Program-made: the position numbers and the translations under genes
Part shown: positions 8,868 through 16,998 of the stretch, piece after piece
How the letters are laid out: each line of letters starts with the position of its first letter
Position numbering within the stretch: the stretch's first letter is position 1
DNA from: Symmachiella dynata
GTDB lineage: Bacteria > Planctomycetota > Planctomycetia > Planctomycetales > Planctomycetaceae
Reading direction: 5' to 3'
Length of the DNA stretch: 64,000 nt
NCBI RefSeq assembly: GCF_007747995.1
Contig: NZ_CP036276.1
Span: 5,260,001-5,324,000, forward strand
Notes under the pieces: model-generated
The model's input: only the letters and a program-made list of their open reading frames with translations
Databases searched by the model: none
What the model was told of the DNA's origin: nothing

Positions 8868-8977
8868 GATATCGTTGAACTCTGAGCAATGTCTTGATTG
8901 GGAAACGATTAGCGAGCGATTGGTCAGGATAACATACATCGTCGATGAGCGCTAGCATCCCCACGAAAAAGGGGCCG

Positions 8978-9050
8978 CTGACGGCTTGTCCGCCAGTGCA
9001 GAACGTGTGACTGGCAATACACTGCTGGGCAAGCCAGCAGTGGCACCCGA
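8978..9050. repeat. Dispersed inverted repeat, GCCAGCAGTGGCACCC type
   Basis: It contains GACGGCTTGTCCGCCAGTG and then ACTGCTGGGCAAGCCAGCAGTGGCACCCG. Further copies lie at 26722-26832 and 35607-35682. It occupies part of the 339-base gap between the two divergently oriented genes; the rest of the gap (8868-9206) shows nothing else I can support. Confidence 0.75.
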
Positions 9051-9206
9051 CTCTCGGACTGTTAGAGACATGCCGCGCAAACGTGGGAAAAATGCCTGTG
9101 TGAATTCCTGATTTCGATAATCCGGCTGTGGAACGAAAACCGCTAGTGTATTCATGTGACCTGCTGGCCTAGAATGACCCGCAACGCCAACCCACGGAGC
9201 ACCGTC

Positions 9207-10610
9207 ATGGACTTTCCCTACTATCCCATCAACGATTTCGGTCCCGCCATGAAGGGATTGGTGATTGGATCGTTGGGGATTTTTCATGTCTTCCTCGCGC
9301 AGTTTGCCATCGGCGGGGGAATGTTGATGTGCTATTTCCAATGGCTATCACAAACCGGCCGCTGCGCGCCGGCGCGGCAATTTGTCGACGGGTTTTTTCG
9401 GTTTCTGGTGTTGGTCAGCTTCATCATGGGAGCCGTCACCGGGGTGGGGATGTGGTTCACCTCGATCCAAATCAGTCCCCGCACGATTGGCATGATGGTG
9501 GATGAATTCCATTGGATCTGGGCGGTGGAATGGACATTCTTCTGTCTCGAAATCGTCGCCGGTTATTGCTTTTATCGCTACGGAACCCGTTTGGATGATT
9601 CCGCACGGATGACGCTTTTGGTGCTGTATGCCGTCGCCGCCTGGGGCAGTCTGTTTTGGATCAACGGTATTTTATCGTGGCAATTGACGCCCGGCATCTG
9701 GCTAGAGACGCATACGATCCAGGATGGATTTTTTAATCCCAGTTTTTGGCCCTCGCTGCTGTACCGCACACTGGTTTCGATGGCCATCGCCGCGTTGGTG
9801 GCCTGCGTTGTGATCAATGTGATGCCGGGATTGGACCGGCCAACGCGGAGCGTGTTGATCAATCATGCGGCACATTTTCTGCTGCCGATGGTTTTTATGC
9901 CCGTGTTGGGTGTGTGGTATTTGATGAGTTGGCCGGAGGACAGCCGCGCTTGGGTCACCGGAGGAAGTCCCGCCATGTCGATGTTCCTGGCGATCGGCGT
10001 CGGGTCGTCGCTGTTGGTGGGGGCCTATGCGACGATTGGAATTTGGTGGGGCAAACTTTATATCAACGGCGCGACCGCCACCTTACTGTGCGCCTTGGCA
10101 ATGGCGGCCACGGCGGGAGGAGAGTTTGTGCGCGAAGGAGCGCGCAAGCCGTATACCGTGCGTGAGGTGCTGTATTCCAACTCGATCCTGCCGTCGGAAG
10201 TCGCCCGCTTACGGCAAAGCGGTTCGGTCACCAATGATCCCTTTCCACTGCAGAATGCTGCCGACTATCCAACACAGCAACTGCAATTGGGGGCAAAGGT
10301 GTTTCGGTTTCAATGCAGCATCTGCCATACGATGCAGGGTGTGAACGGACTGGTGGAATTGACGGGGCATTGGTCCGATGACCAGCGACGGTTGATGATC
10401 GCGCAATTGCAACACACCAAACCCTTCATGCCCCCCTTCTCCGGGTCGGCAGTGGAACTGGAATCGCTGGTGCAATTGATCGGTTGGGAAACGGCTGGAC
10501 GGCCGGAGGGAGCGACGGAGGCGTCGTTGGATCCGGAGATTTTAGAGCGGATTCAAACGTGGCTGGATGAAGCGGGCACCGCACAAGGTTCTAGGAATCC
10601 CCAGAAATAA
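9207..10610 (+). CDS. Cytochrome bd-superfamily CydA-like subunit with fused heme c domain
   Basis: The 467-residue product looks like the membrane core of CydA followed by a cytochrome c domain. Visible matches to CydA: His27 in IFHVFLAQF (E. coli His19 position), the AVE..CLE pair Glu108/Glu115 (E. coli Glu99/Glu107 region), FWINGILSWQLTPG (ANGWMQNP region), and EFVREGARKPYTVREV (GRQPW region). The large quinol-binding Q loop is absent, and Arg187 stands where the heme b558 ligand His186 is expected. Residues 370-374 are CSICH, with Met408 in KPFMPP as a likely sixth ligand. The likely job is a membrane oxidoreductase fed by cytochrome c rather than quinol. ATG 9207 has GGAG upstream. It forms an operon with the next gene. 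Confidence 0.82.
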   Translation: MDFPYYPINDFGPAMKGLVIGSLGIFHVFLAQFAIGGGMLMCYFQWLSQTGRCAPARQFVDGFFRFLVLVSFIMGAVTGVGMWFTSIQISPRTIGMMVDEFHWIWAVEWTFFCLEIVAGYCFYRYGTRLDDSARMTLLVLYAVAAWGSLFWINGILSWQLTPGIWLETHTIQDGFFNPSFWPSLLYRTLVSMAIAALVACVVINVMPGLDRPTRSVLINHAAHFLLPMVFMPVLGVWYLMSWPEDSRAWVTGGSPAMSMFLAIGVGSSLLVGAYATIGIWWGKLYINGATATLLCALAMAATAGGEFVREGARKPYTVREVLYSNSILPSEVARLRQSGSVTNDPFPLQNAADYPTQQLQLGAKVFRFQCSICHTMQGVNGLVELTGHWSDDQRRLMIAQLQHTKPFMPPFSGSAVELESLVQLIGWETAGRPEGATEASLDPEILERIQTWLDEAGTAQGSRNPQK

Positions 10611-10624
10611 ACAAAGAGGCCCCC

Positions 10625-11713
10625 ATGCAGTCCGTGTTTCCGATCGGTTTACCGTGGCCCACGTTGATGTACCTGTTTTTGTACATCGTCACGCTGATCA
10701 TCCATGTCGTATTCATGAACTACGTGCTGGCCGGGACGTGGTATTTGGTTTCGATGAGTCTGTTTGAACGGCGAAAACCCGATCAAACCCCCTCGCTAGT
10801 AGCCGGCACATTGCGAGAATGGCTGCCGTTTATGCTGAGTGCGGCGATTACGGCTGGCATCGCGCCGCTGTTGTTCGTGCAGATTCTGTATAAACGCAAT
10901 TTTTACACAGCCAATCTGCTTGCCTTTCATCGCTGGATGGCGATTCTGCCGGTGCTGATTGCCGCGTTTTATCTGCTGTACATCTGGAAAGCGAAACGTG
11001 TGCAGGCCTGGCCGCGATATTTCACGTTTCCGCTCGGTTTATTGACCTTTGCCGGGTTTGCGTTTATCGCCTGGTCCTGGACGGAAAACCATTTGCTCAG
11101 TATCAACGCCGGGGCCTGGGCCGAGCATTATGCTGCCGGCAATTGGATGTACAAATCCCGTGAGGTCTTGCCACGATTGGCCGTCTGGTTTGCCGGCAGT
11201 TTTCCTACGCTGGCGCTCGTGTTGGGTTGGCAACTGTGGTATTTGCAGCGTGATGTTCCAGACCACGAAACGGTCGGCCGTCACCGGATGTCGATGTTGG
11301 CCTTAGCGGGGTTGGTAACTTCAGCAGTCGCCGCCGCACTCTATGCAGTGGCGATTCCCCCGGAGGTCCGCGAGGCAATCACCGGCTACATGGGGTGGCC
11401 GTACGTGTTTCTCGCCGGCAGCGGCTGGGGCGTGCAATTCGCTTCTTGGTTACAAGTCCGCCGTTCCGCACGGTTGGAGAAAATCTGGCTGGCGACCGCT
11501 TCGGTAGGACTGTTGATGACACTTACGGGCGCCGCCATGATTCGCGAGATCATTCGCTGGTTCCGTATGGACGAGAAAGTCCTCTTTCCGCTGCACAAAC
11601 AGGCAGCCGAGGTGGGGGGACTTTCGATCTTTCTGCTGTTCTTCGTCGTCAATGCGGCGTTGTGTGTCTATTGTGTCCTCCGCGTGAGACGTGGCTTGCG
11701 ACGCGAGAGTTAA
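10625..11713 (+). CDS. Membrane partner subunit of the bd-like complex (CydA-prime-like)
   Basis: The 362-residue product is an integral membrane protein with about eight hydrophobic segments. It does not look like CydB. Its start (LIIHVVFMNYVLAGTWYLV, His27) has the same layout as the upstream subunit (IFHVFLAQFAIGGG, His27), and near the C-terminus AAMIREIIRWFRMDEKV echoes the AATAGGEFVREGARKPY segment of that subunit, so the two may be ancient duplicates. It starts 14 bases after the upstream stop, with AGAGG before the ATG, so the pair is almost certainly one operon and one complex. Heme content is unknown. Confidence 0.72.
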   Translation: MQSVFPIGLPWPTLMYLFLYIVTLIIHVVFMNYVLAGTWYLVSMSLFERRKPDQTPSLVAGTLREWLPFMLSAAITAGIAPLLFVQILYKRNFYTANLLAFHRWMAILPVLIAAFYLLYIWKAKRVQAWPRYFTFPLGLLTFAGFAFIAWSWTENHLLSINAGAWAEHYAAGNWMYKSREVLPRLAVWFAGSFPTLALVLGWQLWYLQRDVPDHETVGRHRMSMLALAGLVTSAVAAALYAVAIPPEVREAITGYMGWPYVFLAGSGWGVQFASWLQVRRSARLEKIWLATASVGLLMTLTGAAMIREIIRWFRMDEKVLFPLHKQAAEVGGLSIFLLFFVVNAALCVYCVLRVRRGLRRES

Positions 11714-11873
11714 TTAGACCGGCCGACAGAGGAAGGCGCCCCTCATCTGGGAATCAACAACTGACGCGGTTGATTCCCGCTACAATTTTCGCAATGCTAC
11801 GGCTAATATTTCCCATTCTTCAGCGAATCATCTCCACTAGGATTCATTGGTGGACCAATAAGCGAATACAACC

Positions 11874-12290
11874 ATGAGTACCAACGACAACGTGGAAGAT
11901 GTCCTGTACGAAGAACATCCGGCGATGTTTCGCAATCGACCGGTCTATTTTGTCTTCTGCTGCCTGCTGATCGCCGCATTCGGCATCGGGCTGGTGATGC
12001 TGCTGATCTGGTATTTCCAGTCGATTGGCACGACCTTGATCATCACCGAGGAACGCACGACCCTGCGGCGGGGCGTCTTCTCCAAGTACACCAATGAAGT
12101 CACGCACGATAATGTCCGCAACGTGCAGATCGCGCAGACGTTTTTGCAGCGGATCATGGGTGTAGGGAACGTGGGGATTTCCAGTGCGGGGCAATCGGGC
12201 GTAGAAATTTTCGTACGCGGCATCCCCGATCCGGAACGTGTGCGGGAGATCATCCACAACGGCTCCCGCGGCGAGTACGAACCGGACTGA
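11874..12290 (+). CDS. Membrane protein with bacterial PH domain (YdbS/DUF304-like)
   Basis: The 138-residue product has a hydrophobic segment at about 24-46 and then a bPH2-type domain: TTLIITEERTTLRRGVFSK followed by NEVTHDNVRNVQIAQTFLQR and VGISSAGQSGVEIFVRGI, the usual pattern of DUF304 proteins. Such proteins sit at the membrane and often tune stress or antibiotic responses; the exact function is unknown. It is 160 bases after the bd-like operon. Its stop abuts, with no gap, the stop of the convergent PQQ gene. Confidence 0.85.
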   Translation: MSTNDNVEDVLYEEHPAMFRNRPVYFVFCCLLIAAFGIGLVMLLIWYFQSIGTTLIITEERTTLRRGVFSKYTNEVTHDNVRNVQIAQTFLQRIMGVGNVGISSAGQSGVEIFVRGIPDPERVREIIHNGSRGEYEPD

Positions 12291-13853: not shown

Positions 13854-14577
13854 GTTGTCTTCCTGTGATTGCCGGCGAGAGTCGTCCTTGGCTATTACGA
13901 AATTAATTGCTGGCCTGCCTGAAATATTTTCCGGTCGACCGGGTATCCCGTTTAATTCACCCCTGGTCCGTGCAAAGTCCCCCGCGTCACCTCGAAGCAG
14001 ACAAATCGGCTTTCGCACTTCGAAATAAAAACCTGATCGCCCTGATTGAACCCAGTCATTGCCCGATTTGCAAGGGGAGAGCGCAACCTGATTCGGGTGG
14101 CTAGAGAGGGCGGTATGCCGTACGCCACGAACAGCACTGGAGATCACGACACACAAAGACCATGTTGCGACTCAGGGCACGAAATTCCACTCGGGTGCGG
14201 TTTCTCTCCGAAGGACTGGATGCCTCAGCATGGCATTCATGATAATCGTTCCAACCCACCTAATCGTGCCTCCGGGATTCATACCAAGCCCGGTGGACCC
14301 GGAACACGGCTCGGGGCAGCTGAGGTCCTGGAATCACCACACAATCCGCGAATCCTGCAGGAATGCGCTTAGGGGTTCTCCTTGACCAGGCTGGTCAACG
14401 ACGAATCTGACACCAGCGCTCAAACGAATGACGGAAACTACTAGTGGACTCATGAGTGCCTGTTTTCACGGGACCCAGGAGTTCATTTTGACAGCGCGGG
14501 AAATGATAGGTCTATAAAAACTGTCATTGCTCCCTCGATATTACTCAGCTGTCATCGTCATTTGCAGGTTTCTCACC
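13854..14577. other. Intergenic region, no gene seen
   Basis: This 724-base stretch separates two divergently transcribed genes and should hold both promoters. Short open frames exist but none has a recognisable product or a good ribosome site. I see no repeat-family copy in it. Confidence 0.5.
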
Positions 14578-15840
14578 ATGGGCACTCAGCTTAAACGTCT
14601 TAGTTGGATATTCGCGATACAGGTCGCATGTGTCGGGCTAGGATTCTGGGTTCAGTACCAGTTTTTGCGATCGTTTTCCCAGCGATCCGCCAGCCAAGTC
14701 GCGTGGGATGAGATTACCTCTGTCAGCTCTGAAATTGTCGCCACAACGCGTGCATCTCAAGCCGAGGCCGTCGATGTTTCGCAGTTATTGAGCCAAGTCC
14801 GTTCAGCGGTTCCCGAACAACCTTGGCAAGCCACGTTGGTGGATGCGGATTGGCGGATTGTCGATCGCGCATCAAAGCACGAGGCCTCGCTCCGACCGGG
14901 AACAACGATTTCTTGGCAGCCTGCTCGCCTGCCGCAACCGGAAACGAATGTTGGCCCAATTCCAGGAATCGCAGCCTTTCCGGACGGTCTGCACGCCGCT
15001 TCGGTATTCAAACTTTCTGATTCCCCTGAGACAGTCCTGATCCATGTCCCGTTGACAGCCGTCAACATGACAACCGCTGAGGCTTTCAAGACCACGCCCA
15101 TGGCAATGTCGCTGGCGCTGCTGTGGACGTGTACATCGCTGGGAATTTGCACCTATATGATTGGGTCGCGCATCGGCGACGCGATTGAGAAGTCACAACT
15201 GAACGCCGAGACCGAGACTCTGCAAAAATCGCAGTCATTGTTGCGCACACAAGATGCGGTGATCTTTGGATTGGCGAATTTGGCCGAATCACGCGATCCA
15301 GAAACTGGCGAACACCTGCAGCGTATTGCGTTGTACGCAACGGCGTTGGCCCGATCCCTGCGCAACAATCCAAAATTCCGCGATGTTGTCGACGAAGAAT
15401 TTGTTCGCCTGATTGGAACAGGTTCGGCGCTGCATGACATTGGGAAGGTGGGCATTGAAGATGCGATTCTTCGCAAACCGGGGCGTCTGAGCCTCGACGA
15501 ACGCAAAGAAATTCAAAGGCATTCCCTCATTGGTTCGGAATGTTTGCTCAAAATCGAACGACGGTTGGGTGCGTCTAATTTCCTACAAATGGCCCGTGAA
15601 ATCGCTCATTCGCATCACGAGTGGTGGAACGGCAGCGGATACCCCGACAATCTCATCGGAAACGAGATCCCCATCGCCGCCAGAATTGTCGCCATCGCCG
15701 ACGTTTATGATGCGTTGGCCACCCGCCGGGTGTATAAGCCCGACTTGCCGCACATCGCCTGCGTAGGATTCATTGAGAGGGGTCGCGGAACACAATTCGA
15801 TCCGGATTTAGTCGATGCATTTTTGGAAGTCGAACAATAA
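14578..15840 (+). CDS. Membrane HD-GYP domain protein (cyclic-di-GMP phosphodiesterase type)
   Basis: The 420-residue product has membrane segments at about 8-30 and 176-198 enclosing a periplasmic sensor-like region, then a cytoplasmic HD-GYP domain. The domain has His247 (GEHLQRI), the HD pair at 286-287 (HDIGKVGI), HSLIGSE, HHEWWNGSGYP (346-356) and DVYDALATRRVYK. This is the set used by cyclic-di-GMP phosphodiesterases to bind two or three metal ions. The frame stops at TAA 15838-15840, but the same frame continues for 48 more codons with the usual HD-GYP tail, so the gene looks shortened by one stop codon. ATG 14578 was chosen over TTG 14527. A related gene follows. Confidence 0.88.
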   Translation: MGTQLKRLSWIFAIQVACVGLGFWVQYQFLRSFSQRSASQVAWDEITSVSSEIVATTRASQAEAVDVSQLLSQVRSAVPEQPWQATLVDADWRIVDRASKHEASLRPGTTISWQPARLPQPETNVGPIPGIAAFPDGLHAASVFKLSDSPETVLIHVPLTAVNMTTAEAFKTTPMAMSLALLWTCTSLGICTYMIGSRIGDAIEKSQLNAETETLQKSQSLLRTQDAVIFGLANLAESRDPETGEHLQRIALYATALARSLRNNPKFRDVVDEEFVRLIGTGSALHDIGKVGIEDAILRKPGRLSLDERKEIQRHSLIGSECLLKIERRLGASNFLQMAREIAHSHHEWWNGSGYPDNLIGNEIPIAARIVAIADVYDALATRRVYKPDLPHIACVGFIERGRGTQFDPDLVDAFLEVEQ

Positions 15841-15987: not shown

Positions 15988-16023
15988 CAGCAATTGCTTT
16001 CCGCTGAAAAACACGGAGTTGCC

Positions 16024-16998
16024 ATGCATACCACACACACACCAACCAACCGCACGAAAGAGCAGTTGGTACTGGAAATCTCCATCATCATGGTGACATT
16101 GGGGCTGACTTGCCTGCTCTACCAAATGCAAGCTTACAAAATGGTGATCCTCAATCTGTTCTTTCTGCCTGTCGTATTGAGCGGATTTTTTCTCGGGCGG
16201 TATTTGGCCGGCATCACGGCGTTGTTTTGCTTCATGTCAGCTTCGATTGTGATTGCGCTGAACCTTTCCACTATCGAGATCTATGCCTCAGCCTCGACGA
16301 CTGCATTGGCAATCACCGCCTGGGGAGCCGTTTTGGGGCTGACATCGTTATTGATCGGCACGCTGAGTGATGAGCGGCGCATTCAGATGGGCGAACTGCA
16401 TGACGCCTATGTCGGCGTGGTCGAAGTCCTCTCGCGCTACCTGCAAAGTGCCCATCCGCGCTTGAAGGACCGTTCGGTGCGGATCGCCGAATTGAGTCAG
16501 AAAGTCGCCGATGAAATGCGACTAACGGGTCGGGAAACCGATGACATCCGTGTGGCGGCGCTGTTGTATGATGTGGGGAACATCGAAATCACCACCTCAG
16601 TCATCCGCAAAGCAGTCGGCGCGCTGGAACATGAAAGCGACGACAAGTTTGAGCAAACCATTCAAGGGATGGATTTGGTGATGTCGCTGGGATCGATACT
16701 CAACGGCGCCGTGCCGTTGCTCCTCAACCAAGACCAACAAATTAAGGCCGCCCGTGAGGCATTGGGAACCGCAACGACGGGGCCGGTGCCTCTGGGGGCA
16801 AAAATCATTCGAGCAGTGCGGGCCTACGACAACTTAATGCTGCACAAACGCGGCAATGCGGATCCCTCGTCCCTGGATCCGTTCACGGAACTTCAGCGGG
16901 ATGATTCACTCGACAAACGCGTACTGGCGGCGTTGCAATCAGTGACGGCAGAACAGAGCCCAACGGGTGCGCCACAATTGGTCGAAGCGACAGTCTAA
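16024..16998 (+). CDS. Membrane protein with degenerate HD-GYP-like domain
   Basis: The 324-residue product has three to four membrane segments (about 18-115) and then a cytoplasmic HD-superfamily-like domain. The metal residues are lost: the position of the HD pair reads LLYDVGNIEI (Tyr182-Asp183) against HDIGKVGI in the upstream gene, and the first histidine site reads RSVRIAEL instead of HSxRVAxL. It is therefore probably a non-catalytic partner or sensor. ATG 16024 has GGAG 8 bases upstream. It lies 36 bases after the tail of the upstream HD-GYP gene, so the two are probably one transcript. Confidence 0.75.
   Translation: MHTTHTPTNRTKEQLVLEISIIMVTLGLTCLLYQMQAYKMVILNLFFLPVVLSGFFLGRYLAGITALFCFMSASIVIALNLSTIEIYASASTTALAITAWGAVLGLTSLLIGTLSDERRIQMGELHDAYVGVVEVLSRYLQSAHPRLKDRSVRIAELSQKVADEMRLTGRETDDIRVAALLYDVGNIEITTSVIRKAVGALEHESDDKFEQTIQGMDLVMSLGSILNGAVPLLLNQDQQIKAAREALGTATTGPVPLGAKIIRAVRAYDNLMLHKRGNADPSSLDPFTELQRDDSLDKRVLAALQSVTAEQSPTGAPQLVEATV

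Follow-up and report, generated by a model that had tools for sequence, protein, structure and literature searches.

A two-gene, CydA-like system with fused cytochrome c in Symmachiella dynata, a probable cytochrome c-fed member of the cytochrome bd superfamily

By what route could electrons enter an enzyme of the cytochrome bd superfamily that has no quinol site? The question is raised by two neighbouring open reading frames (ORFs) in the 64,000-nucleotide stretch of Symmachiella dynata DNA analyzed here (the window, to which coordinates refer unless another locus is named). They lie on the plus strand at 9207-10610 (467 aa, subunit 1) and 10625-11713 (362 aa, subunit 2), with 14 bases between them. 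Homologues, profile and fold identify subunit 1 as a CydA-like protein with eight predicted transmembrane (TM) helices and a C-terminal cytochrome c, and subunit 2 is a nine-TM paralogue of subunit 1 with a CydA fold and no convincing Pfam family. We propose, with a probability of about two in three, that the pair is a two-gene terminal oxidase of the bd superfamily fed by cytochrome c. The original prediction had likewise suggested a terminal oxidase or reductase that takes its electrons from cytochrome c rather than quinol, and the sequence comparisons described below support this interpretation.

Relatives of subunit 1 with 55-82% identity were found at 42 loci in one scan of species genomes, mostly in Planctomycetota and also in Polyangium, Tectomicrobia, a Verrucomicrobiia bin and others. 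The matches of the subunit 1 profile A3 fall into a close tier (tier 1, E < 1e-160) and a distant tier (tier 2, E from about 1e-25 to 1e-93). Tier 1 counts refer to 43 sequences, namely the 42 loci and the window, minus those truncated at a given column; some of these loci are near-duplicates (five are titled Schlesneria) and the conservation counts are therefore not independent. The tier 2 sample consists of the 14 of 17 distant planctomycete matches that were fetched, of which 12 entered the subunit 1 alignment (L062 and L070 are incomplete and were omitted), while the subunit 2 alignment omits L062. Alignment A3 holds 40 of the 42 loci plus the window (L012 and L017 were left out as near-duplicates), and alignment A4 of subunit 2 holds 35 of 39 loci (L012, L017, L022 and L029 were left out). 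Where two counts are given below, the first refers to tier 1 and the second to tier 2.

The relationship of subunit 1 to CydA is distant and clear at the profile level (Prob 98.6, E 5e-16), and in the structure search with VIA CydA was the nearest fold; together profile and fold are CydA-like over helices 1-8. The default profile alignment spans only residues 15-207 and pairs His27 (9285..9287; 42/42, 11/11) with E. coli His19, a ligand of the active-site heme, and Glu108 and Glu115 (9528..9551; each 42/42, 12/12) with Glu99 and Glu107, with one residue fewer between the two; an earlier alignment restricted to tier 1 had Glu115 one residue off Glu107. A relaxed alignment of 314 columns adds Glu310 and Arg313 (10134..10145; 43/43, 12/12), which stand opposite Glu445 and Arg448. 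The CydA landmarks named in the original prediction thus align with CydA and are invariant in both tiers, as are the heme ligands on whose conservation among homologues it had made its case depend. By these residues, the equivalents of His19, Glu445 and Glu99/Glu107, subunit 1 belongs to the cytochrome bd superfamily, and its heme content is predicted from them. His102 in helix 3 (9510-9512), a possible extra ligand or proton relay, is present in 42/42 tier 1 sequences and is V or F in 12/12 of tier 2. Simpler searches were uninformative: single-sequence Pfam and NCBIfam scans of subunit 1 returned only cytochrome c matches, a PDB sequence search with its profile gave only cytochrome c domains among the best 60 of 68 matches, and the CydA Pfam profile misses 32 of 41 subunit 1 members even with a threshold of E 0.01. 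No viral family was found in the family scan.

What subunit 1 has lost is the quinol side of the enzyme. The Q loop is absent from all 55 sequences, as the original prediction had stated: the distance from Arg187 to Glu310 is 123-132 residues, compared with 192-262 residues between His186 and Glu445 in 31 CydA sequences. The claim that Arg occupies the position of the heme b558 ligand His186 holds only in part, because Tyr186 lies opposite His186 and the conserved Arg187 (9765..9767; 43/43, 12/12) follows it; there is indeed no His in this segment of the window protein. Met257, the candidate for the second b558 ligand Met393, is found in 41/43 sequences of tier 1 and in only 1/12 of tier 2. 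The set of features that marks a canonical CydAB quinol oxidase (qOR), a Q loop with Glu257 together with His186 and Met393 for heme b558, is thus not present in subunit 1. Quinol oxidation might still take place elsewhere in the complex, perhaps within subunit 2 or between the two subunits, with heme c passing the electrons on to a soluble cytochrome c as in alternative complex III, so that the pair would not be an oxidase; we regard this as very unlikely. Since both the quinol site and the b558 His are lost, electrons need another entry into the proposed oxidase, and a tethered periplasmic heme c is the evident route.

Such a heme is encoded at the end of subunit 1. The chain exits the membrane after helix 8, where helix 9 of CydA would begin, and continues in its place into a probably periplasmic class I cytochrome c domain (10269..10505), in which a CxxCH motif and a distal Met occur within a cytochrome c fold. 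The attachment motif CSICH (residues 370-374, 10314..10328) has Cys370, Cys373 and His374 in 43/43 and 12/12 sequences, and Met408 (10428..10430; 42/42, 12/12) is the likely second axial ligand, so that both elements of the domain as originally predicted are borne out. In 43/43 subunit 1 sequences Lys and Arg are commoner in the loops predicted to be cytoplasmic (median 11 vs 3), and for this reason heme c should be periplasmic. It follows Glu310 by about 60 residues (range 51-80). One distant subunit 1 (L112, 1954-3501 of that locus) carries two tandem CxxCH motifs.

Subunit 2 was originally taken for a distant CydA copy with a His at the same place as subunit 1; the His and the relationship to subunit 1 were confirmed. 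It is homologous to subunit 1 at E 3e-10 in profile comparisons, which gave E 1.2e-3 for CydB (24 sequences remaining after the length filter) and E 2.3e-3 for CydA; the best chain in VIA was CydA in 10/10 bd entries, and Foldseek returned a mixture of CydA and CydB chains. The pair hence encodes two CydA-superfamily paralogues side by side, as expected of a CydAA' type. His27 of subunit 2 (10703..10705) is opposite His27 of subunit 1 and conserved in 40/40 and 13/13 sequences, and the alignment of the two subunits places Arg307-Glu308..Arg311 (11543..11557) opposite Arg309-Glu310..Arg313. In tier 1 this site is nearly invariant (Glu308 37/37, Arg311 36/37); in tier 2 Arg311 is kept in 11/13, Glu308 is replaced by Q, H or D in 12/13, and RH..R occurs in 5/13. 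Family scans of single sequences gave nothing convincing for subunit 2, and among 36 subunits 2 only weak matches appeared, to DUF5463 in 8 (best 0.0086) and to CydB PF02322 in 1 (E 0.068). Among PDB sequences the profile of subunit 2 retrieved receptors and designed proteins (best E 0.0039), judged to be chance.

In tier 2, 7 of 13 subunits 2 themselves carry fused cytochrome c motifs, one or two each (L065 2875-4707, L066 2905-4743, L067, L068, L113, L114 and L115, in locus coordinates). These seven match the profile only to position 321-335, and cytochrome c apparently replaces the last helix (helix 9) in them; as a control this is not clean, because 2 of the 6 tier 2 subunits 2 without CxxCH (L061 and L069) also end at 315-318. 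Because both subunits keep His27 and the RE..R site and part of tier 2 has cytochrome c in both, the pair could be a pseudo-symmetric bd enzyme in which two separate heme cores receive electrons from two cytochromes c, whereas CydAB is one-sided; we consider this rather doubtful.

In the oxidase that we propose, subunit 1 would hold two active-site hemes on the periplasmic side, with His27 and Glu310 as ligands. The tethered heme c, directly after the Glu310 helix, would draw on the periplasmic cytochrome c pool and hand electrons to the active-site heme pair without a heme b558. Because the ligands of the O2 site and the helix-3 glutamates are kept, the reaction is most likely O2 reduction with protons from the cytoplasm; the protons would pass Glu108/Glu115 to reach the heme pair, and one charge would cross the membrane per electron with no pumping involved, the same as in canonical bd. 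Subunit 2 (CydA') would be a duplicated CydA-like partner that completes the dimer in the place of CydB, and it may carry a heme of its own. The analysis shows homology, predicted fold, ligand conservation, the absence of the Q loop and of the b558 His, and the pairing of the genes; that the two proteins form a complex, which hemes they hold, which way electrons flow, that O2 is the substrate and how protons travel is inferred. By its gene content the genome provides cytochrome c chemistry: next to a caa3-type oxidase it encodes a bc-type cytochrome b to which a cytochrome c is fused.

Several observations would also fit other readings. Among ORFs of at least 80 aa clustered in 67 loci, many of which have short flanks, no respiratory neighbour recurs near the pair and no third recurring gene was found; besides both subunits the widest clusters cover 8 loci and 4 loci, and we read the former as frames overlapping or antisense to the subunits. 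Four heme-copper family proteins are already encoded in the genome, namely the caa3-type oxidase and three further members, of which one is A-type-like and one cbb3-like (both below NCBI cut-offs) and one has no NCBIfam match. Subunit 2 is poorly conserved, with a mean column identity of 43%, and has mostly lost Glu308 in tier 2. The first two points would suit a bd-type enzyme fed by cytochrome c that acts on nitric oxide, peroxide or another small oxidant, in stress defence and not in respiration, for which the same anatomy would be expected. However, the two glutamates of helix 3 and the pair of active-site ligands of an O2 reductase are retained and no other gene family recurs nearby either, and we regard this alternative as unlikely. 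The weak conservation of subunit 2 would fit a degenerate, non-catalytic CydA relative such as a heme sensor or assembly factor, a view made scarcely credible by the strong conservation of subunit 1 (mean column identity 65%) and its invariant core ligands.

The two genes travel together. In the first scan subunit 2 adjoins subunit 1 in 39 of 42 loci, with some copies truncated where the contig ends, and both genes are present in 42/42 genomes. Of the remaining loci, L003 and L037 stop at a contig edge and L042 has other genes at this place, and each of these genomes has a subunit 2 match on another contig; this indicates that both genes are retained even where they are unlinked, although L042, being a metagenome bin, calls for caution. 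L042 is also the nearest relative (subunit 1 82% identical); its subunit 2 copy (L133, G392), on a different contig, is 68% identical, and the surrounding 10.5 kb hold no subunit 1. In tier 2, a subunit 2 relative lies beside or near subunit 1 in 13/14 loci; the exception is L062, whose only match is weak (7.5e-4). Among 392 planctomycete genomes profile A3 matches 39, two of them weakly (E 1e-4 and 9e-4). It also matches 18 of 329 genomes from the phylum to which Polyangium belongs, where two matches are weak and one is partial, and 9 of 288 genomes from that of the Verrucomicrobiia bin. No canonical CydA above the cut-off was found in the single-contig, 7.77 Mb genome of Symmachiella dynata; a sub-threshold PF01654 match elsewhere in it (20.1 bits) was discarded because, by eye, the ORF looks like a transporter. 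Mutual exclusion of the pair and canonical CydA was not seen, with strong CydA in 3 of 10 carriers, about as expected by chance, in an informal comparison of two scans that assumes the smaller sample to be the first 149 genomes.

The original prediction had also called for a tree of the superfamily including both subunits. In one such tree (61 sequences, 355 columns) four groups are each separated with support 100, namely subunit 1 (close and distant tier), subunit 2, canonical CydA and the long CydA-like proteins, of which eight were included; we trust neither its deeper branching order nor, because the branches are long, the joining of subunit 2 to the long proteins (support 86). The long CydA-like proteins, probably of OR-N type, come from planctomycete genomes, five of them from one family; 11 loci were fetched, 10 of which gave a matching ORF (L101-L108, L110 and L111, 601-768 aa, without CxxCH; none in L109). 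With canonical CydAB the pair shares the CydA fold of helices 1-8, the equivalents of His19 and Glu445/Arg448 and the helix-3 glutamates; it differs in lacking the Q loop and the b558 His, in having cytochrome c where CydA has helix 9, and in a partner that is a paralogue of subunit 1 and not recognizably CydB. Two CydA paralogues also make up the archaeal CydAA' of Caldivirga; there, however, quinol is oxidized, and the enzyme is not known to carry a fused cytochrome c. The pair is likely OR-C as defined by Murali, Gennis and Hemp (2021), a family that lacks the quinol site and is tied to c-type heme; this is a lead only, and if OR-C profiles match, the pair would be a member of that family. 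Literature searches found no published description of the pair; as the OR-C-defining paper lies outside their coverage, we do not claim absence from print.

In published accounts the bd superfamily comprises three families, with OR-C beside OR-N; the donor of OR-N enzymes is probably cytochrome c and not quinol, their two CydA-type subunits may make up a CydAA' complex, and a bd-type enzyme of Nitrospira lacks the quinol site (PMC10839748, PMC12342949, PMC12324825, PMC13189123, PMC11707229). The OR-N oxidases of Nitrospirota and Nitrospinota, as described in three of these papers, resemble the pair in the missing quinol site, the proposed cytochrome c donor and the two proposed CydA-type subunits (PMC10839748, PMC12342949, PMC12324825). 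The bd-like oxidase of nitrite oxidizers, which we read as OR-N, is described with 14 TM helices and with three helices where the Q loop would be (PMC3578206). Measured against the OR-N features as we read them (about 14 TM helices, extra helices at the Q loop, no fused heme c), subunit 1 does not fit OR-N: it has eight TM helices and a CxxCH motif and stands apart from the clade of long CydA-like proteins.

For subunit 1 the ATG at 9207 is favoured over a GTG at 9156, because homologues begin there (Met in 26/26 with a residue at that column). The pair is flanked by a short-chain dehydrogenase gene on the opposite strand and a bacterial PH-domain gene, and two adjacent HD-domain (HD_5), HD-GYP-like proteins are encoded at 14527-15840 and 15994-16998. 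No sigma-70-like promoter was found in 8900-12000 and no FNR-like box from 8900 to the start of the pair, the nearest matches falling inside genes. The window as a whole has 42 FNR-like palindromes (at most 2 mismatches), compared with a mean of 29 in shuffles, of which 0/100 reach 42.

Characterized bd enzymes use quinol, and the pair would open the claim that some bd enzymes use cytochrome c to direct testing. It would also reveal whether catalysis at the O2 site is possible when heme b558 is missing. With only two genes and a heme c of its own the unit is compact, and it occurs in planctomycetes, in a Verrucomicrobiia bin and in Polyangium, one strain of which comes from a culture collection. 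Annotation would benefit as well, given that most subunit 1 members escape the CydA Pfam profile and subunit 2 has no convincing family.
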